From assembly GCA_025362675.1 (NCBI GenBank), contig JANYFN010000128.1, positions 1 through 41,213 of the forward strand: 41,213 nucleotides of DNA, given 5' to 3'. The notes beneath the pieces were generated by a model. It was given only the letters and a program-made list of their open reading frames with translations. It was not told the origin of the DNA and searched no databases. Positions 142 through 41,213 of this stretch are shown here, in pieces (the first letter of the stretch is position 1; the number at the start of each line of letters is the position of its first letter). The DNA comes from Limisphaerales bacterium. GTDB taxonomy: Bacteria; Verrucomicrobiota; Verrucomicrobiia; Limisphaerales; UBA11358. The position numbers and the translations under genes are program-made.

Positions 142-217
142 AACCGACGCAAGCGATACCAATACCATTTTGTCTGGCGATTTGCGCGTCGTCCGGCAAA
201 ATCTATAAAACCGACGC

Positions 218-1186
218 ATGAAAAATCGCATCGTTCAACCCGGATCGCCGCTGCGGAAACTGTTTCCGCTCGCGAAAAAATTGCGTCACGCGGCCAAAAA
301 ATTTTACGACCGCACTGGCGAACGCCTCGTCGTCAGCGGCGGGAAAATTCAGTTCATGGACGCGGAACTGGTGTTTCCCGAAAACGTCGCGCTCACCTAC
401 ACCACGCCGCTGTTCTGGAGTGGGCCCGATGCCTACGAAGCGCCGACCAGCCGCGCCATCGCCCTGCTCGCCAGCCGCTCAAAAGTTTTTTTGGACATCG
501 GCTCGAACATCGGCATCTACGCGGTATATGTGGGCGTGAAATTTCCGACGGTGAAAACGTTCGCGTTCGAACCGGTGCCGGACATCTGGAAAAAAAACTG
601 CGCGTTCCATCGCGCCAATGATCTTTCTGAAAAAATTGTCCAAAACCTCGCGTTGAGCGACCACGACGGCCCGCAGAAAATTTATCTGCCGGTGGAAACG
701 AATTGCATTGAGGAAGAACAGACCGCCACGCTCAACGAAAATTCCTGGCAGGCGAACGCGGCAAAAGTCGCGGCTCTCGAAATCCAATGCCTCACGCTCG
801 ACACCTTCGCCGCGCAGAACGCACTGCCGTCCGGGGCGTGCAGCGTGAAGATTGACGTGGAAGGTTTCGAGGCCGGCGTGTTGCGCGGCGGAAAAAAATT
901 TCTAAACGCGCGCCGTCCGTGGATCGTGTGCGAGCTGCTGCCGTGCGAGGAATTTGATCCCGTCACCAAAACACTTCGCAATAACAATGGCCCGGCGCTC
1001 GCGGTGCTGGAGGAATTGAACTACGCGGCCTTCGCCATCACCGCCGATGGATTTTTCCGCATGAACACAGGGGATTTCTCGCGTCCGCGCACGCTGAAAG
1101 ATTTCCTGCTGGTGCCGAAGGAAAAAATTTCCGCCGACACATCCTACCTCGCGGCGGAAAACGTTTTGCAAATTTTTTCCGCATGA
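218..1186 (+). CDS. FkbM family SAM-dependent methyltransferase
   Basis: This is a cytoplasmic class I methyltransferase of the FkbM type, which usually O-methylates sugars or polyketides. The SAM-binding motif DIGSNIG is at residues 93-99, the acidic FEP motif at about 117-119, and the family signature KIDVEGFE at 211-218. The length of 322 residues is normal for the family with a short N-terminal extension. It is the first gene of a glycosyltransferase set and its stop overlaps the next start in ATGA, so its substrate is probably a sugar in the glycan made here (inference). A TATAAA at 204-209 sits very close to the ATG; no Shine-Dalgarno site is visible. Confidence 0.9.
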   Translation: MKNRIVQPGSPLRKLFPLAKKLRHAAKKFYDRTGERLVVSGGKIQFMDAELVFPENVALTYTTPLFWSGPDAYEAPTSRAIALLASRSKVFLDIGSNIGIYAVYVGVKFPTVKTFAFEPVPDIWKKNCAFHRANDLSEKIVQNLALSDHDGPQKIYLPVETNCIEEEQTATLNENSWQANAAKVAALEIQCLTLDTFAAQNALPSGACSVKIDVEGFEAGVLRGGKKFLNARRPWIVCELLPCEEFDPVTKTLRNNNGPALAVLEELNYAAFAITADGFFRMNTGDFSRPRTLKDFLLVPKEKISADTSYLAAENVLQIFSA

Positions 1187-30083: not shown

Positions 30084-31616
30084 TCACGGTGCCGCAATCT
30101 TCAAATGTGAAATACGGAACACCGCACCATGTGGTGCGTTGGGCAGACACGCGATATCCCAGCCATGCGCGTGGACAATCTGTTGCACGACGGCGAGGCC
30201 AAGGCCGGTTCCTTTTTGGTGCGTCGTGAAGTAGGGCTTGAAAATTTCTGCTCGATTTTCGTCAGTAACCCCAGGCCCGTCATCGCGTATTTCCAATATC
30301 CCTTCGCTGTGAACGCGCTGCGTGACTATCTGAATTTTCCCGTTTTCAACCGCCGCCTGAATGGCATTAAGAATCAGGTTGAACAAAACTTGCCGCAGCA
30401 GTTGTTCATCCGCCTCGATTGAAAAAGTTTCGCCGGTGACGTCCACACGCAATTTCTTTTCCTCGATGTCGTAGCCCAGTGTGCGCACGACCTCGCGGCA
30501 GGCGGCGGCGAGCGAAACATTGGAGCGGCGAACTTCACGCGGGCGCGAGTAATTAATGAATTCGGTGAGCTGCGCAGTGACCTTATCTGTTTCATCCACG
30601 ATAGCGCGGGCTTTTTCCTGCACTGATGCCGGGGCATCCGGCAAGCGTCCGAGCATCTGCGCCTGACCACGAATGATGTTGAGCGGATTACGCGTTTCGT
30701 GCGCAAGTCCAGCCGCGGCCAGGTTCAATTCTTTCAAATGCGAATTCTGTTCACTGGCCCGGATAAGGCGAATTTGCAATTCCGCATTGCGCGACGTATT
30801 GCGCCACGCCAAGCCAACTCCGAGCGCGGAGATGCCCGCAAAAAAACCAATGACACAGCGCAGCCACCAGTCGTGCGTGCAGCCGGCGCGGAAATTTTCC
30901 GTGGACATGACCAGCACGAGTCCGTGCAGTTCGCGCTTGGCGGCGATGGCCTTGAAATCGGCATCGCTCATCCCGCGCATCCACGGTGGCCGGCGATTAC
31001 CACCGCGCGGGCGCTCGCCCTCCGGTGGCCGACCGTTTTCATCAGGCGGCGGTGGCTGAAATTCCCGGTCAGCATTGGTGTGTGGCGGCGGCAGGTTCGT
31101 TGATGAAAAGCTATTACGGACCTCGCGCGGAAAGCTGTTCGTCAGGTTGCGAAATGAAGGGAGCACTACGGTGGGGTTAGTCGTGCCGCCTTCAGCGTTC
31201 ACGCTCCCACCCTCGACTGGCAGCACGAAAACGACGTTGTCCTCGGACCAGCGTTCGCCCTCGCCCGCCGACTCACGGGAGATTAAATTCGTCTGGCCCG
31301 CCGCCGCCACCGTGTCGCCCTCGTTGTTCAGCAATCCAACGGCAAGTAACTGGCTGGCGCTTACGAGCGCGTTGGTGCGGATGCTGGCGAGTTCGTTGAG
31401 CACTGGATCAAGCCGGTCCTGAAACAGCGCGCCCCGAAAACGCACCGCCCGCGTCACGGCATTCAAAGTCCGGGCGATTTCGTGCGAGCGATTGCGGAGG
31501 TCGGCCTTCGCGGCGTCAACCACGCGGCGATGCTCGGTGATCTGCCACACGATAACGAGCAACCAAGCAGCAAGTAGCAGGGTTTGGACAAAACTGCTAT
31601 GACGTCTCATTTGCAT
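30084..31616 (-). CDS. Sensor histidine kinase
   Basis: A 510-residue membrane kinase. It has a helix at about 9-26, a periplasmic domain to about 250 that includes a proline- and arginine-rich stretch at 186-212, and a second helix at 252-271. The cytoplasmic part has the H box AHETRNPLN with His 306, the N box NLILNAIQ at 413-420, DDGPGV at 445-450, and GTGLGLAVV at 469-477. This resembles NtrB/ZraS-type kinases. No response regulator gene is adjacent. It starts 34 bases after the secretin gene in the same direction, without a visible terminator between, so it is probably read from the secretion operon. Confidence 0.93.
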   Translation of the reverse strand: MQMRRHSSFVQTLLLAAWLLVIVWQITEHRRVVDAAKADLRNRSHEIARTLNAVTRAVRFRGALFQDRLDPVLNELASIRTNALVSASQLLAVGLLNNEGDTVAAAGQTNLISRESAGEGERWSEDNVVFVLPVEGGSVNAEGGTTNPTVVLPSFRNLTNSFPREVRNSFSSTNLPPPHTNADREFQPPPPDENGRPPEGERPRGGNRRPPWMRGMSDADFKAIAAKRELHGLVLVMSTENFRAGCTHDWWLRCVIGFFAGISALGVGLAWRNTSRNAELQIRLIRASEQNSHLKELNLAAAGLAHETRNPLNIIRGQAQMLGRLPDAPASVQEKARAIVDETDKVTAQLTEFINYSRPREVRRSNVSLAAACREVVRTLGYDIEEKKLRVDVTGETFSIEADEQLLRQVLFNLILNAIQAAVENGKIQIVTQRVHSEGILEIRDDGPGVTDENRAEIFKPYFTTHQKGTGLGLAVVQQIVHAHGWDIACLPNAPHGAVFRISHLKIAAP

Positions 31617-31650: not shown

Positions 31651-32892
31651 TCATTTTCCCTTTTTCAACGGCACCCGTTCGAGGAAGCGGTTAAGCTCCT
31701 GTTCGCTCACCTCATTCGTGATGACTTGGGACTGGCGGGTTTCTGTCACCGCGAGCGCGGCCAGATCTGAAGGCTGATTGACGATGTGCGGCGTGAGAAA
31801 CATGAGTAGCTCGGTCTTGTCATTCGAGCGCTTCGAGGCTTTGAACATATGGCCCAGAATCGGGATGTCGCCCAAAATCGGCACCTTGCTTTCGCTCGAA
31901 GATTTTGAATTGGCGATCAAGCCACCGATGACGACGGTCTGTCCGTCCGGCGTCACCACGACGGTATCGGCAGAGCGGATGTTGATGTTCGGCGCGAACA
32001 CCGGTGAGCCGAGCAAGCCGCCCGTCGCAATTTGCTGGCCGGGAGTGGAGGTGTCCACTGACGAGGTTTGCGGCTGCAAAATCATTTCCACGAGATTGTT
32101 TGCCCCGATGAACGGCGTGACGTTGAGAATGATTCCGACGTCAGTATAATTACCGTTGATGATCGGCGTCGTCGTATTGCCCGTAGTGGTGAAAGTGACA
32201 CCGCTGGGCAAATAGACCTGCTGCCCGACAACAATTTTCGCGAGCTGACCGTCGCGGGCCAACACAGACGGCCGCGAAAGAATCTGCGCCTTACCCGCCG
32301 TCGCAATCGCCTTGAGCGTCGCCTGAAAATCAGAGCCGACGATCTGGTAAAATCCGTTCGGATTGCTGTTGGGCGTCAGAGCATACTGGCCGGTCACTGG
32401 ATTGCGTCCGCCGACATTGAAATTCGTCACCAAGCTGTTGGCACCCGCGAGTCCAAAAACATTGGCCGCGCTACTATTCAAATTATTCCCAATTCCCTTG
32501 GAATAGGATCCCTCAACGCCGATGTCCGAGCCGTTATTACGCTGCACTTCCAGAAAAACCATTTTGATCAGCACCTGCGGTTTCGGCACGTCTAGATTGG
32601 CGATGACGTTGCTGATCGCCAAACTCGTCTCCTCGTCCGCGATCACAACGATGTTATGCGTTTGCGGGTCCACCGTGATGACGGCATTGCCGACGGAGCC
32701 GTTGTTATTGTAAGCCGTCGTGTTGCGGCTGCTTGCATTGCCACCGCCGAAACCACCAAAACCGCCGCCGCCAAAGCCACCAAAACCGCCAAAGCCACCG
32801 CCGCCACGTTGTTGAGCGTGAAGTTGAACTTCCGCGCCCAGCACGAACGCCAGCGTGACCAGCGAAATTTTCTTGAACAGATTCGTTTTCAT
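31651..32892 (-). CDS. Secretin C-terminal part (half N3 plus outer-membrane gate)
   Basis: A 413-residue protein with its own signal peptide (basic start, hydrophobic core, cleavage after LHA at about 26). Next is a glycine- and phenylalanine-rich segment at 29-52. Residues 69-102, with VITVDPQTHNIVVIADEETS and LDVPKPQVLI, form only the second half of a secretin N domain. The secretin core follows, with VGQQVYLPSGV and IGGLIANSKSSSESKVPILGDIPILG, ending with a short tail. It should form the outer-membrane ring of the secretion system. It lies 24 bases after the gene for the N-terminal part and in the same reading frame. Confidence 0.92.
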   Translation of the reverse strand: MKTNLFKKISLVTLAFVLGAEVQLHAQQRGGGGFGGFGGFGGGGFGGFGGGNASSRNTTAYNNNGSVGNAVITVDPQTHNIVVIADEETSLAISNVIANLDVPKPQVLIKMVFLEVQRNNGSDIGVEGSYSKGIGNNLNSSAANVFGLAGANSLVTNFNVGGRNPVTGQYALTPNSNPNGFYQIVGSDFQATLKAIATAGKAQILSRPSVLARDGQLAKIVVGQQVYLPSGVTFTTTGNTTTPIINGNYTDVGIILNVTPFIGANNLVEMILQPQTSSVDTSTPGQQIATGGLLGSPVFAPNINIRSADTVVVTPDGQTVVIGGLIANSKSSSESKVPILGDIPILGHMFKASKRSNDKTELLMFLTPHIVNQPSDLAALAVTETRQSQVITNEVSEQELNRFLERVPLKKGK

Positions 32893-32916
32893 AAAATTGT
32901 ATCGCGATGAGATTGG

Positions 32917-34377
32917 TTAGAATTGCAATCCGCCCGCCCCACCACCGCGGGTGTTGCCGCCGCCGCCGCCAAAACCAGAACTGCTGCTGGATGAGGTGGT
33001 CGTCGTGGCGTTGTTTTGTGACCGCTGCATCAGCGCGCTGTTCTGCGAAGAGCTGCTGCCGCTGCGCGAGGTGCTACTCGATTGGAACATGGTTTGCAGC
33101 ACCTGCGCCGCTTGCTGCGCATCACCATTCTTCATCTGGAACACGTAAACTTTCTGGTCGCGCGTCGAGGGCACGTCGAGGTCTTTCATCATGTTACCAA
33201 TCTGATCCATCAAATCCTTTGGCGCCGTGACGATCACCGCTTGAATGCGCGCGTCCGCCACCGCCGAAACCTGCGTCGCTTTTTTGATGCGATCATTGGA
33301 AGTTCCGCTGCCGCCGGTATTACCCCCGCCACCGCCGCCACCACCACCGCCCATCATGCGCGAGAAAAATCCACCGGGCCCACCGCCACCACCAAAGCCA
33401 CCGCCAAAACGAATCGGCGATTGAGAACTGCTGCCCGAACCACTGCTGGGAAATATACTCGCCAGCTCCGTCGCCACATCGGTCGGACTCGCGTGCTTGA
33501 GATGGAATACACGAATTTCTGTTTCCGCCTCCGCACTGCTATCAATCGCCTTGATGATCTCCGTGAGGTGCCGGATGTTTTGCTGCGTATCCGTGATGAC
33601 CACAGAATTGCCCGCCTCATTCGCGACCACGGTTGCCTGCGGCGAAACGAACGAGGTGAGGTCCGAGACGAGTTGCCTGGCTTCGACAAAACGGATCGGA
33701 ATGATCTGCGTGACGATCTCCGCGTTCTTCGGAATCTCATCAGGATTGTTGCCCGACTTCACCGGAATATCGCGCGTCTTCGCATCGTTCTTATCCACGA
33801 TCGTCAGCGTGCGCCCATTGCGGATCGCGGCGTAACCATTTTTATTCAACACGCCGCTCAACAGATCCACCGCTTCATCCTTGGTCACTGGCTGCCCGCT
33901 GATGATGCTCACGTTGCCGTTGACATGCGTGTCGAGGACAATGATAAAGCCAGCAGCATCGCTCAAATAATTCAGCACCATCTCCAACGGCGCATTGTGA
34001 AAATTCAAGCGCAGCTCGTTCGGATTATTTGTCCCGCTCACACTCGTCGGCGGCAGAAAATGGGAATCATAAGCGCCGCGCGGCGGGTGCGCACTATCGG
34101 CGGGCAAGATCACGTTTGGCCCTTGGTCTTTTTGTGGCTCGGCGGAGTTGCCGCCATTGCCGGACGCTGGCTCCGCCGCCGCAGGCAAGGCCGCTGCCGC
34201 TTCCGCCGAGGTCGGGGCATTAGCTTCCGGCTCACCCGCCGTCGCGGGCACGGCTTGATCCGGCGTTGGCGGCGGCGGATTATTATCGCCCGTCGGTGGT
34301 GTTTGTTCCTGCGCGGACGCTGACACCAGCAGACCCGCGAAGACCAAGGTTAAAAATTTTAAACTGATCGTTTTCAT
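32917..34377 (-). CDS. Secretin N-terminal part (N0-N1-N2 and half N3)
   Basis: A 486-residue secreted protein. A signal peptide (about 1-22, cleaved after ASA) is followed by a proline- and alanine-rich linker to about 115. N0 is at 121-197 (LRLNFHNAPLEMVLNYLSD), N1 at 221-280, and N2 at 286-402 with a long glycine-rich insertion at 324-358. A third repeat begins at 409 (VYVFQMKNGDAQQAAQVLQTMF) but breaks into serine- and glycine-rich sequence and ends at 486. No gate domain is present. The product would form the periplasmic vestibule of the secretin and pair with the next gene's product. The start overlaps the GspC/PilP-like gene by 4 bases. Confidence 0.9.
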   Translation of the reverse strand: MKTISLKFLTLVFAGLLVSASAQEQTPPTGDNNPPPPTPDQAVPATAGEPEANAPTSAEAAAALPAAAEPASGNGGNSAEPQKDQGPNVILPADSAHPPRGAYDSHFLPPTSVSGTNNPNELRLNFHNAPLEMVLNYLSDAAGFIIVLDTHVNGNVSIISGQPVTKDEAVDLLSGVLNKNGYAAIRNGRTLTIVDKNDAKTRDIPVKSGNNPDEIPKNAEIVTQIIPIRFVEARQLVSDLTSFVSPQATVVANEAGNSVVITDTQQNIRHLTEIIKAIDSSAEAETEIRVFHLKHASPTDVATELASIFPSSGSGSSSQSPIRFGGGFGGGGGPGGFFSRMMGGGGGGGGGGNTGGSGTSNDRIKKATQVSAVADARIQAVIVTAPKDLMDQIGNMMKDLDVPSTRDQKVYVFQMKNGDAQQAAQVLQTMFQSSSTSRSGSSSSQNSALMQRSQNNATTTTSSSSSSGFGGGGGNTRGGGAGGLQF

Positions 34378-34970
34378 TTGTTTTCCTGTGCTCGTTTTTC
34401 CATCAACCGTTTCAAAATATCATTTGGCTCACCCGCTGCCGCTGGCTTGCTCTCGCTGTCACCAACGCTTTTATCCGCTGCCGCACCGCTGCTGGCTGCG
34501 CCCACGGGCAAGTCAGCCGCGCCCGCTAATTGCCAGCCACCGTTTTCCTGCCGCAACACTTCGCCCACTTTCATGTTCATTTGTTTTTTGTCGGCCGCCT
34601 CCAGCGTCACGCTCGTCGCGCCGATCGCCACAATCGTGTAGCCCGCGATCTTTTCCGACACCGGCAGAACCTTTTTCAGCTCCACATCATTGCTGCTAAA
34701 AAAGGCGAACGTCCCCTTCTCGTAGGCCATGGTCCCGACAAGCGCAATCGTCGGCGCCGAGGTGGAATGCGTCGTGCGTCGCGGACTCTGCGGCCGCGCG
34801 TTGGACGAATAATGCGGCTGCCGGTTCGGGTCAAAAATATTGCGCTCCGTCACAAAACGACTGAACGCCGGATAATCCGTCGGCCCGGGAATATTCTTGT
34901 TCGTCTGCGCGAATAGTTGGCCCCCGCCTAACAGCAGTGCGAGCCACAAAAATGTTGATTTAATTTTCAT
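34374..34970 (-). CDS. GspC/PilP-like inner-membrane-to-secretin linker
   Basis: A 198-residue protein with an N-terminal signal or anchor at about 1-22 (a cleavage site LFA-Q is possible). The segment FSRFVTERNIFDPNRQP at about 36-52 resembles the start of the homology region of GspC and PilP. A small beta domain follows, with IALVGTMAYEKGTFAFF and YTIVAIGATSVTLEAADKK, which is expected to bind the N0 domain of the secretin. The C-terminal part is alanine-rich and ends in a helix. It overlaps both neighbours by 4 bases. The assignment rests on position and the short conserved motif. Confidence 0.75.
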   Translation of the reverse strand: MKIKSTFLWLALLLGGGQLFAQTNKNIPGPTDYPAFSRFVTERNIFDPNRQPHYSSNARPQSPRRTTHSTSAPTIALVGTMAYEKGTFAFFSSNDVELKKVLPVSEKIAGYTIVAIGATSVTLEAADKKQMNMKVGEVLRQENGGWQLAGAADLPVGAASSGAAADKSVGDSESKPAAAGEPNDILKRLMEKRAQENK

Positions 34971-35503
34971 TTTTTATCGCTGATCTGCAACGCCAGCCCA
35001 TTCAATTCCAGCGCGAGGGTCATCAACTGACCCGAAGCGTCCCGCGCCGTCAGCTCGATTGAATCCAGTTTCACCGCGAGCGGTCCACGCTCCACCGCGT
35101 TCAACAACTTACTTAATGATGCTAAATCGCCCGCCGCTTCCACGCGACACGCCAGCGTCAGAAAATTCGTCGATTCATTTTTCCATTGCGGCATGATGCT
35201 GGTGACTTCTGCGCCCGCTTCCCGCGACCAACCATCGAGCGCTTTCAGAAACTGCTGCTCCGCCTGTGACGTGTTTGCCGCCAGCGCATTCGACTGCATT
35301 TCGCTCCAGCGACTGCGGATGCCCGTCTCCCGTTTCACGAGTTGCTGCCCCTCGCTCACCTGCGTGCGCAAATTTTTTATCTGCGTCTGCCGCGACGACC
35401 ACCAGTCGCCCAGTGGGAATAAAATAAAATTAATCGCAAGTGCCAACCCGCCCACCGCGATAGTCATGGCGACGAGAAATTGCTGCCGGTTTTCAATTTT
35501 CAC
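34967..35503 (-). CDS. GspM/PilO-like protein
   Basis: A 178-residue bitopic protein with a membrane helix at about 11-30, a coiled-coil-like segment to about 90 and a small C-terminal ferredoxin-like domain. The order, helix then coiled coil then small domain, fits GspM or PilO, which forms a heterodimer with GspL or PilN. There is no diagnostic motif, so the call depends on its position directly after the GspL/PilMN-like gene, with an ATGA overlap, and before the GspC/PilP-like gene. Confidence 0.72.
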   Translation of the reverse strand: MKIENRQQFLVAMTIAVGGLALAINFILFPLGDWWSSRQTQIKNLRTQVSEGQQLVKRETGIRSRWSEMQSNALAANTSQAEQQFLKALDGWSREAGAEVTSIMPQWKNESTNFLTLACRVEAAGDLASLSKLLNAVERGPLAVKLDSIELTARDASGQLMTLALELNGLALQISDKK

Positions 35504-36954
35504 TCCGCACCTCCGTTGTTGAATTTGAAGCTGAACACAAATTGGATCGGCGGTTTATTGCCCCGGCTCTGCTCCCGATGCACCGCGCTCACGCCTTGGA
35601 TTTTGCTAAGGTTCGCCTCGACCGCAAGCAGCGATGAATTGTCCCGTGCCGTCCCGGCGCACGTCACCGTGTTGCCGTCGCGAATGGTGATGTTCTTCGC
35701 CGTCACCGCGCCGTCCTCAGGAAACGCCAGCGATAACTGCCGCAGAATCGCAAGATGCTTATAGTTCCCGCCATACCACGGTCGATACTGGCGGATGTTC
35801 GACTGAATATTTTCGAGCTGGCCAACCTTCTTTTCGATTTGCGCCCATTGCGAGCGCAATCGCCACAGTTGGACTTGCTGATAAAGAAAAAATCCTATCA
35901 CGATCAGCGCCACGCCAGCCGCAATCGCCCCCGTCGTGCGCAACCGGCCGGAAGAATATTTTTTGGTGAACTGCTCGAGGAGGCTCGGCTTCGGCGGCAG
36001 AAATTCAAACGCCGGTTTCCGTTCTGCTAATAGATTTGCCGCGAGGCTGAACGCCGGTGAAATCGTTGCGCCCACCGGCAACGTCGCGCCGAATTCATCC
36101 GCCGCGTAAGCCGTCGCGAGTTCCACTGCCAAACCCATCGGCTCAAATTTTAATTCCATTTCATCCGCCAATTGCTGCGCCAGTTCGCGCGGCCCGAAAA
36201 TGCGGATGCGTTTCACCTTCGCGCGCAATTCCGCCGGTAACTGGCCCAACGTCACGCGCGTCTCACGGGCAATCACCTCCGTGTGCAACGTGCGCCGCCC
36301 GGCTTCGTTTTCCACCGCGCCCTCCAGTCCGCGCAGCGCCGCCACCCCGCCGCCGGTGGTGATCTGCAAGCCGAGACTGCTCTCGCCAATCACGAGCGCC
36401 AGCACGCCGTCTGATTTTTTATCGCCGCAAAATTGCAGCGCAGAAATTCCGAGACCGAAACTCACCGGTTTTAATTTTGCCGCTGCCAAAACTTTTTCCA
36501 GCGTGGCGAGGTGTGAATTCGGAATACCCGCCAGCAGCACAAATTGTTTGTCTGCCGCCAACGGCGCGCGGGATTCGCCAATCTGCAACGTCGTAATGTC
36601 CGCGTGAAAATTCTTCTCCGCCTCCATCTGCAACAAGCTCGCCGCGTCCGCCTCGGGCAACGGCGGCAATTCCGTTTGCGCCGTCAGCACCCATTTCAAC
36701 GGCACGCCGACAATGCAGTTACGCTCACGAACCCCAGCAGAATCAAGGTGATTGCGAATTTCCTGGCCAACCAGTTCCGGCGCGGCGGTCAGCGGATCAA
36801 GGGTGAGCACCACGGAAAAATTCTGGAGCGATTGCAACGCGCCATTCACGCGTTTGAGCACCACACCGTCGAGGCGGCTGCCGTCAAGCGTGAGGCCGAG
36901 CACCGAGGACAATTTTTTCCCTTTGCCAGATTTTGGTTTGAAATCAGAGTTCAT
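35500..36954 (-). CDS. GspL-like protein (fused PilM and PilN architecture)
   Basis: A 484-residue assembly protein. The cytoplasmic part, residues 1 to about 310, has an actin-like PilM fold, with VLGLTLDGSRLDGVVL at the start and LALVIGESSLGLQIT in the middle. A segment at about 306-322 (ANLLAERKPAFEFLPPK) resembles the N-terminal tail of PilN. One helix crosses the membrane at 341-360, then a coiled coil and a small periplasmic domain follow. This corresponds to GspL, or to PilM and PilN in one chain, and should connect the ATPase to the pseudopilus machinery. It overlaps gspK and the GspM-like gene by 4 bases each. Confidence 0.82.
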   Translation of the reverse strand: MNSDFKPKSGKGKKLSSVLGLTLDGSRLDGVVLKRVNGALQSLQNFSVVLTLDPLTAAPELVGQEIRNHLDSAGVRERNCIVGVPLKWVLTAQTELPPLPEADAASLLQMEAEKNFHADITTLQIGESRAPLAADKQFVLLAGIPNSHLATLEKVLAAAKLKPVSFGLGISALQFCGDKKSDGVLALVIGESSLGLQITTGGGVAALRGLEGAVENEAGRRTLHTEVIARETRVTLGQLPAELRAKVKRIRIFGPRELAQQLADEMELKFEPMGLAVELATAYAADEFGATLPVGATISPAFSLAANLLAERKPAFEFLPPKPSLLEQFTKKYSSGRLRTTGAIAAGVALIVIGFFLYQQVQLWRLRSQWAQIEKKVGQLENIQSNIRQYRPWYGGNYKHLAILRQLSLAFPEDGAVTAKNITIRDGNTVTCAGTARDNSSLLAVEANLSKIQGVSAVHREQSRGNKPPIQFVFSFKFNNGGAE

Positions 36955-38321
36955 TGCGTATTTTTCGCGACCAGAGTTTCCCGCGCTTTTTCGCCCAGCG
37001 CCCAGCCGAGCCGGCTCAGGTCTTGTCGGTATAAAATTTTTGGCGAACCATCGCTCACATCGAAAATAAATTTAACGCGCCGGTAGCCGCGACCGAACGC
37101 GCCGACCGCCGCGATGTCCGCCGTGAACTGATAACTGTGCGTCGTCACCGAATTGCCGCGCGCCAACGCCGTCACCACCGGACTATTATTTCCCAGCGCA
37201 TCAATCAGCCACGCGCTGGAAGTGAGATTATTCAGATTCTGCGCGCGATAATTGATCAACGTCTGCGCCGCGCTCTCCGCCGTGGATTCATCCACGTTCG
37301 CGCCCATGAACAAAGCCGTCAGCACATCCATGTTCGCTGTGTTGATGTTCACTCGCCCGCGAAAATAAGTGTTCGTGCTGGTGGTCACGTTGTTCGCGAT
37401 CTTGTTAAAATCGTCCGAACTCATGCCGGCGTTTTTGCAGCGCAACGCAAAATCCAGAATGCCGTTGCAAGCAATCGTCCGCTGCGTGCCCGGCGGGTGG
37501 ATCGTGCGGTAAATGGATTGCGCCATGCTCGTCGCACTGGCGGTGCCGGCGCTTTGAAACAAGGAACGAAATTGTGCTTCCGTGATGGCGTTCACGTTCG
37601 TCAGCGATGTGCCGTCGGAATGAAAATTAGGTTCGCGCGTGTAAACCGTGGTGTATTCAAACAGACCGGGATCGAGTTCGCCATTGCTGTTCAAATCTTT
37701 TTCGCTCTTGTCGAGCACGCCGTTGCGATTCACATCCTCGCCCGCGAGCAATTCCACCGTCGCGCCGGAAACCAGCCGCAATTCATCCACCGTCTCGAAC
37801 GGCGCGTATTTCGACTGATAACCCGCCGACGTATAATCAGCGCCAAGGATTCCATTCGTGCCGCGCCAGTCTTGGATCGCATCGGAAAAATCTGTGGTCA
37901 TGTTCGGCAAATACTGAAGCACGTTCGTGCTGGAATTGTTCAAGCTCAATTTGCCGCCTTCATCCACGAGCCCAAAGTAAGGATCGGTGGAACTCTTGCC
38001 CGATGGATCGCGGCCAATCAGCCAAAACTTCGCGTCACCCACCGCGACAGCCTCGCAACTAAACTGGGTGTTGTCCGGCACCGCACCGTTCGTCGCAAAA
38101 TTCTGGAGCGCATAACCGACGTAGCGCGCCGCGCCTTCGATGGCTTGATCCGCGACAAGTCCGCTGACGCGATTATCGGCCGCGCGCAATTCGAACGTCA
38201 TCTGATTCGCAAAATACAGCGCGATGCTGACCAGACCAAGCGCCACCCAAAGCACGATGATGAGCACCGACGCATTATTGCGCCGTTTTCCAATGCTCAA
38301 ATTGGCTTGGGTTAATTTCAT
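36951..38321 (-). CDS. GspK-like minor pseudopilin
   Basis: A 456-residue type II secretion minor pseudopilin, the tip component. The N-terminus NNASVLIIVLWVALGLVSIALYF is a class III-type signal without Glu at +5, which is typical for GspK. The long globular region contains DEGGKLSLNNSS and an aspartate- and asparagine-rich DVNRNGVLDKSEKDLNSNGE segment near 200, which could bind calcium. INTANMDVLTALF is a helix-hairpin-helix-like motif common in GspK. The start overlaps the GspJ stop and the end overlaps the GspL-like start, each by 4 bases. Confidence 0.9.
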   Translation of the reverse strand: MKLTQANLSIGKRRNNASVLIIVLWVALGLVSIALYFANQMTFELRAADNRVSGLVADQAIEGAARYVGYALQNFATNGAVPDNTQFSCEAVAVGDAKFWLIGRDPSGKSSTDPYFGLVDEGGKLSLNNSSTNVLQYLPNMTTDFSDAIQDWRGTNGILGADYTSAGYQSKYAPFETVDELRLVSGATVELLAGEDVNRNGVLDKSEKDLNSNGELDPGLFEYTTVYTREPNFHSDGTSLTNVNAITEAQFRSLFQSAGTASATSMAQSIYRTIHPPGTQRTIACNGILDFALRCKNAGMSSDDFNKIANNVTTSTNTYFRGRVNINTANMDVLTALFMGANVDESTAESAAQTLINYRAQNLNNLTSSAWLIDALGNNSPVVTALARGNSVTTHSYQFTADIAAVGAFGRGYRRVKFIFDVSDGSPKILYRQDLSRLGWALGEKARETLVAKNTQ

Positions 38322-39070
38322 GTTCCGCTCAAAACCATATTCGTCCGTGCGACCGCATCAATCGGCACGATCAACTGGATCGGCTCCGTGATATTTTTTT
38401 TATCACCCGCCATCTGGATTTCCACCTTCACGGCCAGCGGCAGGTTGGTGTTGATCGTGTTCGCATCGCTCGTGTCCCACGTGTCCTGCCAGCGCGAACC
38501 GTCGTAGCAGGAAAATTTCACGCTCTCCACACCGCTCAACATCAACTGATCTTGCACGTCCGGCGTCGCACTGATCGCCAATAAATTCCGCGTGATGCTG
38601 CGATACAAATCGCGCCGCCCGCTGGCGTCCGTGGAGTTTTTTAATTCATACGTCACGCGCTGGATATCGCCCCACGGTGTGGTGGCGTTCAGCGCGCCGG
38701 TCGCCGTGCACATTTCCACCGCCACCGGTTCGGTCACGCCGGGACTGTTGATCGTGCCCGCCTTGAAATTGCCTGACAAAATCTTGCTCGTGCCATTCGT
38801 CGGCGTGACACAGCATTGCAAATCGCGCCGTATGAACGTCACGGTCGCATCGAGCGGCGTCGCCGCGTCCACCACATTGCTGGTCACTTCGCGCAAATGC
38901 AGTGCGGTGAACAGCACTGCGTTGACCGCCACCAAAACAATCGCCGCCACACCGATGGCGAGAATCATCTCGATGAGCGTGAAGCCGGCGGCGAGTGACG
39001 AAATGCGAACGACGCCACTTTGCTTTCGCAAGGCAGCTATTAGACTTTCATTTGTCATTCCAATTTTCAT
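38318..39070 (-). CDS. GspJ-like minor pseudopilin
   Basis: A 250-residue pseudopilin with a leader of about 29 residues, unusually long, and the prepilin site AAGFTLIEMILAIGVAA with Glu at +5. A hydrophobic helix and a globular domain of about 190 residues follow, which fits GspJ in size. It lies between the GspI and GspK genes, with 4-base overlaps on both sides. An in-frame start nearer the cleavage site is possible, but the ATG at 39070 makes the ATGA overlap with GspI. Confidence 0.85.
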   Translation of the reverse strand: MKIGMTNESLIAALRKQSGVVRISSLAAGFTLIEMILAIGVAAIVLVAVNAVLFTALHLREVTSNVVDAATPLDATVTFIRRDLQCCVTPTNGTSKILSGNFKAGTINSPGVTEPVAVEMCTATGALNATTPWGDIQRVTYELKNSTDASGRRDLYRSITRNLLAISATPDVQDQLMLSGVESVKFSCYDGSRWQDTWDTSDANTINTNLPLAVKVEIQMAGDKKNITEPIQLIVPIDAVARTNMVLSGT

Positions 39071-39558
39071 TTACTCGTCATGGTGCTCGCCGTCCCGGTC
39101 TGTCCCAGCTGACTCACTAGCGTATCCAGCTTCACCGCATAATCTTTTCCTTGCGCGGAGAACTTCACTTCCGCCGTCACCACTTGCATCGCCGAATCTT
39201 GCGACCAGCCAGCGCTCGTCAGCGTCCACCGGAATTCCCGGCCGCCTTCCGTCGCCGTCCCATTCTGCGTGCCGTTGCTCCAGTTCGTCATCACTAAGCT
39301 TTCGTTCAGCACGCGGTCCGCGATGCGTGCCGCCGAACCTTTGCGCGCCGCGACTTCGCCCGCGAGGCTTGCGACATGAATCGCCTCGACCGCCGCCGGA
39401 ATCACGATGGCGAGAAACAACAGCGCGGCCAAAACTTCGGCGAGCGTGAAGGCGGACTGCTGCGTGCTGCGTGCTGCGTGACGGAAACCCGCCGCACGCA
39501 GTCTCCGCTGGTCACGCTCCACGCAGCACTCGTCACTGTTGCGCGTCAGTAATTTCAT
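39067..39558 (-). CDS. GspI-like minor pseudopilin
   Basis: A 163-residue pseudopilin, with prepilin site SAFTLAEVLAALLFLAIVIP and Glu at +5. I choose the ATG at 39558, because the longer open frame to 39597 lies inside the GspH gene. The leader before the site is still about 34 residues, basic and low in order. It overlaps the GspH gene by 26 bases and the GspJ start by 4. The short globular domain (RKGSAARIADRVLNE) fits GspI. Confidence 0.82.
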   Translation of the reverse strand: MKLLTRNSDECCVERDQRRLRAAGFRHAARSTQQSAFTLAEVLAALLFLAIVIPAAVEAIHVASLAGEVAARKGSAARIADRVLNESLVMTNWSNGTQNGTATEGGREFRWTLTSAGWSQDSAMQVVTAEVKFSAQGKDYAVKLDTLVSQLGQTGTASTMTSK

Positions 39559-40054
39559 AACCCATCCGCGTTTTGCCCAGCACCAGCCACCGGGCAAATC
39601 CTGCTGAGTCTGTCAATTTGAACGTCGCTGGGCTGTTGTCATCCACCGTGCCGTCCGCCGAAAATTTTATCGCGGGCAAATCGTGAAACGTGGTCGGCGT
39701 GGCCGCACCGGCGCTCACCACGGCGATTTGCAACGTTGAATCCACGTTCAACTCCTCCGCCTTCGCATCGCCGTTCTGCCCGCTCGTCTCCGCCTGCAAA
39801 CCGTAACTGCCCGATTTTTCATTCACCCACAACAGCATCGTGGCGCCCTCGGAAACCGCGCGACTTTGCCCCGCGTGAATCAGCGCCGCGAACCGGCGCG
39901 CCTCGGAATCCAGCGCGCGTCCCCGGATGAACCGCGCCATCGCCGGGGCCGCAATGGACGTGATGACCACCAGCAGCGCGAGCACGAGGATCAACTCGAT
40001 CAACGTGAACGCGCGGCGGCGTAAATTATTTTGTCCAGTTGCCCACATCATCAT
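39533..40054 (-). CDS. GspH-like minor pseudopilin
   Basis: A 173-residue pseudopilin with the site RRRAFTLIELILVLALLVV, Glu at +5, and the following ARFIRGRALDSEARRFAALIHAGQSRAVSEG, a helix typical of GspH. The beta-rich C-terminal half contains IKFSADGTVDD, also usual for this family. Three consecutive ATG codons at 40054, 40051 and 40048 can serve as start. It overlaps gspG by up to 29 bases and the GspI gene by 26. Confidence 0.88.
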   Translation of the reverse strand: MMMWATGQNNLRRRAFTLIELILVLALLVVITSIAAPAMARFIRGRALDSEARRFAALIHAGQSRAVSEGATMLLWVNEKSGSYGLQAETSGQNGDAKAEELNVDSTLQIAVVSAGAATPTTFHDLPAIKFSADGTVDDNSPATFKLTDSAGFARWLVLGKTRMGYEITDAQQ

Positions 40055-40493
40055 CCGTTCCCTCCTTGGCGTCGGGTCCGACGGACACCAAGTCGTAAGA
40101 ATTCGCGTTGTGTTTGCCGGGGAAATAATAATTGTAGTTATTGCCCCACGGGTCGGACGGAATTTTATCGAGATACGGCCCGTGCCAATTCTTCGCGTTA
40201 CTCGGCAAGGTCACGAGATCACCCAGGCTTTTCGGATAGTAGCCATTGTCCACCTCGAACGCGTCGAGCGCGGTCTTGATGGCAGAGAGGTCCGCGCGCG
40301 CGGCGGTCGTGCGCGCCTGTTCGCTGCGCCCCACGATTTTAGGAATCACCAGCGCCGCGAGAATGCCGATGATGGTGACGACCAGCAGCATTTCCACGAG
40401 CGTGAAAGCGCGGCGCGCCAATGAGCGCGCCAATGAGCGCGTAAATCGTAAATCGTAAATCGTAAATTTATTTTGTTTGGTTTGAATGTTCAT
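40026..40493 (-). CDS. GspG major pseudopilin
   Basis: A 155-residue major pseudopilin. The site RRAFTLVEMLLVVTIIGILAALVIPKIVGR is class III, with Glu at +5, and the C-terminal part has NGYYPKSLGDLVT, DPWGNNY and SVGPDAKEGTDDDVGNW, which are the GspG calcium-site signatures. The ATG at 40493 lies 13 bases after the gspF stop. The resulting leader of about 28 residues is unusual: it is encoded by four heptamer repeats and two 12-base repeats. A TTG just before ARRAFT would give a leader of normal length. The upstream open frame to 40565 overlaps gspF and is rejected. Confidence 0.9.
   Translation of the reverse strand: MNIQTKQNKFTIYDLRFTRSLARSLARRAFTLVEMLLVVTIIGILAALVIPKIVGRSEQARTTAARADLSAIKTALDAFEVDNGYYPKSLGDLVTLPSNAKNWHGPYLDKIPSDPWGNNYNYYFPGKHNANSYDLVSVGPDAKEGTDDDVGNWTK
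40413..40440. repeat. 12-base tandem repeat in the gspG leader
   Basis: GCGCGCCAATGA is repeated twice (40413-40436) and then begins a third copy (GCGC). On the coding strand it encodes the repeated tetrapeptide SLAR. As 12 is a multiple of 3, copy changes would keep the frame. Confidence 0.8.
40440..40467. repeat. Heptanucleotide tandem repeat, four perfect copies, in gspG
   Basis: CGTAAAT is repeated four times without error over 28 bases. On the coding strand it spans the 5' part of gspG and encodes FTIYDLRFT, where the frame shifts by one base per copy. Gain or loss of one copy would change the reading frame between the ATG at 40493 and the prepilin site. Confidence 0.9.
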
Positions 40494-40506
40494 AATTGCG
40501 TTGTGT

Positions 40507-41213
40507 TTATTTGATGTATTCGCCCATCGAAAGCACCGGCAACAACATGCCGATGAAAATGACACCGATGAATCCCGCGATCAAAAACAGCATCAGCGGC
40601 TCGGCAAATGCCACGGCGGTTTTCAAGTTGCGATCCAAATCCACTTCCGTGACAGCGGCAACGCGCACGAGTTCAACGTCAAGTTTACCGCTCTCTTCCG
40701 CGACGGAAATCATTTCCAGCACCGAGCCGGGAAAAAGCGTTTTACAATCCGCGAGACTCTGGCCGAGCCGTCCGCCCTGCTGCACGCGCTCGATGGCTTG
40801 CGCAACGGCATCCACCAAAATCTGGTTGCCGATGGAACGGCGCGCGACGTTCAAGCCGTGAACCAGCGGCACGCCCGCACCGATGAGCGTGCCGAGCATG
40901 CGACAGAAACGCGCCATTGCAAATTGCGCGATGAGCGGGCCGACGAGCGGCATTTTCAAAATCAATCCCTCCCACGAGCGCTTGCCTTTTTCGGAAACGA
41001 GCCACGTGCGCACCAAAAATCCAATGCCCAGCAAAGCGGCGGCCACGATCAAACCGTAGTGCCGCATCAAATCACTCGCAGCAATAATCACCTGTGTTAT
41101 CAAGGGCAAAGCCCCGTGGATGCTCGCGAATACTTTCTGAAATTTGGGAATGAAAAACACCAGCAACACGACGAGCACCACCAACGCGAGCACCAGCAGG
41201 ATGGACGGATACA
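40507..41213 (-). CDS. GspF inner-membrane platform protein (5' end outside the window)
   Basis: The C-terminal 235 residues of a type II secretion platform protein, cut by the window end at 41213. The visible part begins YPSILLVLALVVLVVLLVFFIPKFQKVF, a typical GspF/PilC helix. It continues through GPLIAQFAMARFCRMLGTLIGAGVPLVHGL and ends GVIFIGMLLPVLSMGEYIK, the usual C-terminus. GspF links the cytoplasmic ATPase to the pseudopilus. It lies upstream of gspG in the same operon; gspE would be expected beyond the edge. Confidence 0.95.
   Translation of the reverse strand, partial: YPSILLVLALVVLVVLLVFFIPKFQKVFASIHGALPLITQVIIAASDLMRHYGLIVAAALLGIGFLVRTWLVSEKGKRSWEGLILKMPLVGPLIAQFAMARFCRMLGTLIGAGVPLVHGLNVARRSIGNQILVDAVAQAIERVQQGGRLGQSLADCKTLFPGSVLEMISVAEESGKLDVELVRVAAVTEVDLDRNLKTAVAFAEPLMLFLIAGFIGVIFIGMLLPVLSMGEYIK

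Follow-up and report, generated by a model that had tools for sequence, protein, structure and literature searches.

A two-chain GspD, divided within an N domain, in a verrucomicrobial type II secretion operon

In type II secretion systems the channel through the outer membrane is a secretin called GspD, in which periplasmic N domains (N0 to N3) precede the gate-forming secretin domain. Here, we describe a GspD that is encoded by two adjacent genes, gspD-N and gspD-C (products D1 and D2), on the minus strand of a contig from a Limisphaerales bacterium. The window, i.e., the whole stretch of DNA analysed, is the entire 41,213-base contig (C207) of a 4.3 Mb genome distributed over 306 contigs. 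The stop codon of D1, TAA, lies at 32917-32919 and is followed by 24 nucleotides (nt) until the start of D2; in the window the two genes share a reading frame by coincidence. Signal peptides were assigned using a charge and hydrophobicity rule and by eye, without a dedicated predictor. The features of the gene pair are:

32917..34377, minus strand: gspD-N, encoding D1 (486 aa: signal peptide, N0, N1, N2, first half of N3, Gly/Ser tail)
33814..34008, minus strand: N0 domain (D1 residues 124-188; Pfam PF21305, E 3.6e-14)
33535..33711, minus strand: N1 domain, best Pfam stretch (D1 residues 223-281; PF03958)
33178..33522, minus strand: N2 domain with a Gly-rich insert in its helix 1-strand 2 loop (D1 residues about 286-400; from alignment A2 and a model)
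33073..33153, minus strand: N3a, i.e., strand 1 and helix 1 of N3 (D1 residues about 409-435; from models and alignments)
33022..33045, minus strand: D1 tail motif QNSALMQR (from an alignment)
32893..32919, minus strand: break between D1 and D2 (stop TAA and 24 nt ahead of the D2 start)
31651..32892, minus strand: gspD-C, encoding D2 (413 aa: signal peptide, Gly/Phe-rich linker, second half of N3, secretin domain)
32815..32892, minus strand: D2 signal peptide (residues 1-26; from the sequence and a rule of thumb, with the expected cleavage site, ahead of QQ, placed by eye)
32695..32814, minus strand: Gly/Phe-rich linker of D2 (residues 27-66; from the sequence and a linker survey)
32584..32688, minus strand: N3b, i.e., strands 2 and 3 and helix 2 of N3 (D2 residues about 69-103; from models and a Pfam match below cut-off)
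31780..32307, minus strand: secretin (gate/barrel) domain (PF00263)

The domain content of GspD is divided between the two proteins. D1 displays three Secretin_N stretches in Pfam (E 4.6e-27), while D2 harbors the Secretin domain PF00263 at residues 196-371 (E 1.3e-46), preceded at residues 48-106 by only the later part of Secretin_N (profile positions 25-69 of 69; E 5.6e-4; 20.5 bits, below the cut-off of 28.2). Three N domains (N1-N3) ahead of the gate are reached only across D1 and D2 together, the D2 part being the one below cut-off. On the GspD model TIGR02517, which has 600 positions, D1 covers positions 1-296 and D2 positions 284-599. Neither is a single polypeptide that exceeds the cut-off of 351.35 bits (D1, 200.7 bits; D2, 232.7 bits), but taken as one genomic place, with one TAA inside, they reach 435.9 bits. 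The pair is a two-chain GspD, without a GspD protein in the usual sense. At its C-terminal end D2 carries a conserved stretch, SExELDRFLxxxP. A first-pass annotation, made from the sequence alone, had described a secretin split into two secreted proteins within N3, with Gly/Ser-rich new ends and a Gly-rich insertion in N2 at the loop that matches the break; all of these features are found in the sequences and alignments. No Rfam family reached its gathering score in the window.

The break is conserved far beyond this contig. The protein P0002 was sought in 59 genomes, its own included, and its alignment A1 in samples of the order (320 genomes), the class (286) and the phylum (288). In the order sample, 211 of the 320 genomes gave a match at E <= 1e-80 (115 of the 154 better ones among them). 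Matches at E <= 1e-100 were found in 46 of the 286 genomes of the class sample, 5 further genomes matching only at 1e-55 to 1e-69 through other secretins, and matches at E <= 1e-65 in 6 of the 288 of the phylum sample, two of these from other classes. The 154 loci that were read were all picked by their D2 match and cover part of the 211 order genomes, leaving aside the weakest groups of the order sample (e.g., families f2 and f26). D1 and D2 are separate genes in 153 of the 154 and fused in none; in the remaining locus the contig ends where D1 would be, and D1 is not visible. In a separate set of related loci, 13 of the 80 matches listed had separate genes, 47 of the 80 were fused and 20 of the 80 were without a D1 match.

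Nine of the 154 loci are exact repeats, and 144 are distinct; among the distinct loci the median gap between D1 and D2 is 32 nt. Wide gaps in three loci (L088, its repeat L290, and L279) stem from a wrong start chosen by the start rule. A genuine 805-nt spacer separates D1 and D2 in L267 (G539:C1:27150-31200), and in L070 D1 itself is broken across two frames.

Because the frames coincide in the window and only TAA and 24 nt lie between the genes, one could consider a single functional chain, obtained by read-through of the stop or by frameshifting, or a stop that reflects a sequencing or assembly error. Across the loci, the frame of D2 relative to D1 is 0, 1 or 2 in 50, 40 and 51, respectively, of the 141 distinct loci with a gap below 200 nt, and the D1 stop codon varies (TGA 73, TAA 61 and TAG 19 of 153). 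On read-through, the D2 signal peptide would fall inside the domain, and the same split is found in two single-contig genomes, G167 and G324. These four observations refute a single chain as a general explanation, and we consider it extremely improbable. The frame counts across loci rule out a sequencing or assembly stop, and together with the stop codons and the conservation in 153 of 154 loci they exclude a chance stop or error in the window.

The split also appears to be old. The split loci that carry a name (L083-L095) come from Verrucomicrobia subdivision 3, from Pedosphaera parvula and from other members of the Verrucomicrobia; two contigs among them bear the labels PVC group and Omnitrophota, respectively. 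In a tree built from 71 secretin domains, a single branch (SH-like approximate likelihood-ratio test, SH-aLRT, 99) has every one of the 32 split rows on the same side, where they adjoin two Planctomycetota GspDs, L098 and L099 (support 98). The tree is the result of a quick search and has several long branches among its non-split rows, of which 4 of 39 (L105, L109, L118 and L129) had no D1 match and are not proven to be fused; a secretin of the window's own genome, L185, lacks the anchor motif and is absent from the tree. The simplest reading is a single fission in the verrucomicrobial line.

While the break was retained, the number of whole N domains varied. Among the distinct loci, D1 has a short form (N0, N1, N2 and half of N3) in 73 and a long form, with one more N domain, in 60; in 7 it is cut off and in 4 it fits neither form. 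The form was taken from the chain length after N0, which replaced a poor count of N domains by regular expression and which mislabels some rows, so that the number of changes on the tree, about 9 with at least 6 forced by well-supported branches, is rough. In the aligned rows the cut always lies after helix 1 and before strand 2 of whichever N domain comes last. Since an additional whole N domain is present in 60 of the 133 length-sorted distinct D1s, it is the last N domain that is broken, which need not be N3; the earlier placement of the break inside N3 stands for the window and is too narrow for the family.

The corresponding part of fused GspDs is a loop that joins helix 1 to strand 2 of N3; its length varies widely, and Gly, Ser or Gln are often abundant in it. 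Sections of PMC6882859 on PulD describe this loop (288-303, with the register determined separately) as not modelled by electron cryomicroscopy (cryo-EM), and N3 as forming a constriction of the channel. A cut in this loop therefore breaks no strand or helix and leaves two flexible ends per subunit. The end of D1 carries the motif QNSAL..R, in which Arg 452 is found in 153 of 153 rows and Leu 449 in 148 of 153 (the window and 152 loci, repeats included; L163, which has no anchor, was omitted). No conserved counterpart of its Leu-x-x-Arg was seen by eye in the N3 loops of 23 of 34 fused sequences (three anchored elsewhere). The mature end of D2 ahead of N3b has a median length of 40 residues, 36% of them Gly, with at least one Phe-Gly pair in 105 of 148 rows and none in 43. 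Judged from these sequences, the new ends of D1 and D2 may not be idle.

Whether N3 is completed across the two chains was addressed using structure models and sequence statistics. In two models, each of a single read-through chain, N3 closes from about residues 409-435 of D1 and 69-103 of D2. The second query was an N3-only segment; alignments of the longer relatives were unusable as a query, with D1 halves slid onto D2 halves in MAFFT. Residues 409-431 of D1 and 69-102 of D2, for which a failure to pair had been named as evidence against the split-domain idea, do pair in these single-chain models, and the earlier proposal of reassembly by fold complementation holds to the extent that such models can speak for it. 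The residues concerned are conserved: in D1 V410 is kept in 149, L427 in 151 and F431 in 146 of 153 rows, and in D2 V83 in 133, V96 in 142, L100 in 150 and D101 in 152 of 153, which agrees with an N domain that would still be built.

Covariation between D1 and D2 was analysed over 136 rows (effective number 70; L163 again omitted), with strand limits taken from the model's DSSP and set after the couplings had been viewed, and with contacts that were not derived from a structure. In each of three shuffling schemes, the one within tight clades included, none of 60 shuffles reached the ten strongest couplings between the halves. The block between strands 1 and 3 was equalled by 0 of 60 shuffles in both the global and the loose-clade scheme, that between strands 1 and 2 by 19 of 60 and 23 of 60, respectively, and the antiparallel ladder within tight clades by 6 of 60.

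Several observations weigh against closure of N3 between separate chains. The models, being single chains, favor contact within the chain; their mean pLDDT (predicted local distance difference test) values are 66.4 and 58.3 and the predicted template-modelling score is 0.39 in each, N3a in the first model is only at about 61-75 with 3 of 13 D1 rows reaching it, and residues of some alignment rows strayed over the break. In structure comparisons the hits were secretin N1, N2 or N3 domains (PulD by its 187..258), and because they are spread over these three they indicate an N domain rather than N3 as such; a plain Foldseek search using the N3 model had no hit at E <= 0.001, the best one having E 0.29 across 32 columns. 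In the covariation, the strand 1-strand 3 block was matched by 17 of 60 shuffles within tight clades, the helix 1-helix 2 block never stands out (36, 34 and 20 of 60 across the schemes), and a parallel ladder, which had not been expected and is at least as strong as the antiparallel one, was exceeded by 0 of 60 shuffles in every scheme. The covariation between the halves is only suggestive and does not prove pairing.

We consider it probable that D1 and D2 form the outer-membrane channel GspD of a type II system, made of two exported proteins through an old gene fission, with N3 completed when they meet. By analogy with known secretins, D2 would make the ring in the outer membrane and D1 would stack beneath it, with N0 contacting the inner-membrane platform. 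As the models suggest, the last N domain, which is N3 in the window, would take its strand 1 and helix 1 from D1 and its remaining elements (strands 2 and 3, helix 2) from D2, and it would close only once the two proteins meet. Each pair of subunits would then contain one complemented domain, by which the vestibule of N0-N2 would be held to the gate ring. Alternatively, the two proteins could form stacked but separate rings, where D2 is a short secretin whose half N3 is folded or loose and D1 touches the ring without the domain being completed. A ring of D1 alone is plausible because N0-N1-N2 of XcpQ self-assembles into rings without the C-domain, as stated in sections of PMC5646246; in keeping with separate rings, D1 also retains its own conserved tail motif. 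Yet strand 1 and helix 1 of N3 have stayed in D1 with their core intact (the counts for V410, L427 and F431 given above), and N3 is closed in the models; separate rings are in our view unlikely.

The genes upstream of the pair place it at the end of a type II operon, which on the minus strand runs F (at the contig end), G, H, I, J, K, L-like, M-like, C-like (weak), D1 and D2:

40507..41193, minus strand: GspF, at the contig end (PF00482, 86.9 bits)
40026..40565, minus strand: GspG, major pseudopilin (TIGR01710, 133 bits, over cut-off)
39533..40054, minus strand: GspH-like (PF12019, 28.9 bits; TIGR01708 under cut-off)
39067..39597, minus strand: GspI-like (TIGR01707, E 9.6e-7, under cut-off)
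38318..39070, minus strand: GspJ (PF11612, 48.9 bits; TIGR01711 under cut-off)
36951..38321, minus strand: GspK (PF21687, 29.2 bits; NF037980 under cut-off)
35500..36954, minus strand: GspL/PilM-like, weak (TIGR01709, E 0.0044, under cut-off)
34967..35503, minus strand: GspM-like (NF040576, E 6.2e-9, under cut-off)
34374..34970, minus strand: GspC-like, from its place and a weak match (NF041515, E 1.2e-6, under cut-off; no Pfam match)

F, G, H, J and K exceed a Pfam or NCBIfam cut-off. The single-contig genome G324 has the order E, F, H, an unassigned frame, J, K, L-like, another unassigned frame, D1 and D2, where E, F, H, J and K support the placement in a type II operon. A histidine kinase gene (30084-31616, minus strand) lies 34 nt downstream of D2 in the window.

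The genome of the window also holds other secretins. Contig C268 (L184, L307) carries a second type II operon, with E, F, pseudopilin-like genes, K and an L-like gene, and an intact GspD of 931 aa with N0, four Secretin_N stretches and the secretin domain (TIGR02517, 457 bits); this genome, therefore, does not split every GspD, and the one-chain protein provides an internal control. An intact gspD elsewhere, to which D1 and D2 were unrelated, had been named in the first-pass annotation as a finding that would speak against it: the intact gene exists, yet D1 and D2 make up a GspD of their own, encoded in a separate operon. The presence of other secretins would fit a scheme in which D2 serves alone in a different, vestibule-free machine and D1 is a leftover or a regulator. 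Against this stand the gene order, D2 being directly preceded by D1 in 153 of 154 loci (with the spacer of about 800 nt in one of them), the G324 operon that ends in D1 and D2, and the N0 domain retained by D1, and we regard the scheme as highly unlikely.

Additional secretin-related frames were observed in the same genome. On the 3.3-kb contig C302, a frame of 264 aa (L313; 2514-3275, minus strand) matches the N-terminal part of GspD (TIGR02517 positions 1-158), and a PF00263 search listed no secretin domain on this contig. On C140, a frame of 1,032 aa (L188:2296-5391, minus strand) starts with a BlaR1/M56 peptidase region, and part of the secretin profile matches close to its end (45.6 bits). 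A frame of 592 aa on C27 (L189:2417-4192, minus strand) starts with an extracytoplasmic function (ECF) sigma factor region and gives a weak, partial match to a secretin (33 bits) towards its end. Among the genomes searched, giant secretins were found in L080:1-11412 (plus strand) and L081, where the frame exceeds 3,800 aa in the stretch (4,142 aa in the genome search) and contains 26 Secretin_N stretches and one secretin domain; across the order, 11 genomes have secretin matches within frames of 2,928-4,276 aa.

Compared to the known GspDs (PulD, XcpQ, ExeD and EpsD), the pair has the same order of N0, N1, N2, N3 and secretin domain, the same place at the end of a type II operon and a joint TIGR02517 score above cut-off, but it consists of two exported chains instead of one, neither of which passes the cut-off alone. 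Split secretins as such are known. In the rhizobial type III system RhcC1 and RhcC2, and in some Pseudomonas syringae HrcIIC1 and HrcIIC2, also supply the N-terminal part and the pore part from two genes (sections of PMC3574062 and PMC3973906). According to the same sections the RhcC genes are separately located, and that of PMC3574062 calls the significance of the split unknown; RhcC1 and RhcC2 are of distinct origins, an older N-terminal remnant and a Tad-like secretin (PMC4500985 and part of PMC3459982). In contrast, D1 and D2 are adjacent and apparently derive from one gene cut within one domain: each scores best, among the models listed, on the GspD model, over adjoining stretches, and D2 groups beside fused GspDs in the tree, which has no Tad rows. 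The rhizobial split, which joined separately located genes of distinct origins, is therefore another kind of event. Gene fission within the same superfamily of machines is described for TadB/TadC of the inner-membrane platform, where the cut lies between two repeated domains rather than inside one; the sections of PMC6668835 and PMC10191384 concerned name no fission of a secretin. A truncated pilQ in a Xanthomonas strain is discussed, in part of PMC3826837, as a frameshift. In searches of the open-licence literature neither a split or two-gene GspD nor anything on GspD of Verrucomicrobia was found, the rhizobial type III secretin being the sole split one listed.

As to function, it is conceivable, though doubtful, that the N3 joint lets the D1 vestibule dock on and leave the D2 gate ring, and that the new ends, the Gly/Ser tail of D1 with the invariant Arg and the Gly/Phe-Gly-rich end of D2, are located at the N3 constriction, where they would form a flexible, perhaps FG-like, plug with a part in gating. 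Secretins are usually treated as one-chain pores; here vestibule and gate are no longer covalently joined. The link was apparently lost a single time and is absent from every locus of the family that was read, while whole N domains continued to be gained or lost. A natural two-part pore makes it possible to test whether the rings assemble separately, in which order they do so, and whether secretion requires the vestibule to remain attached.
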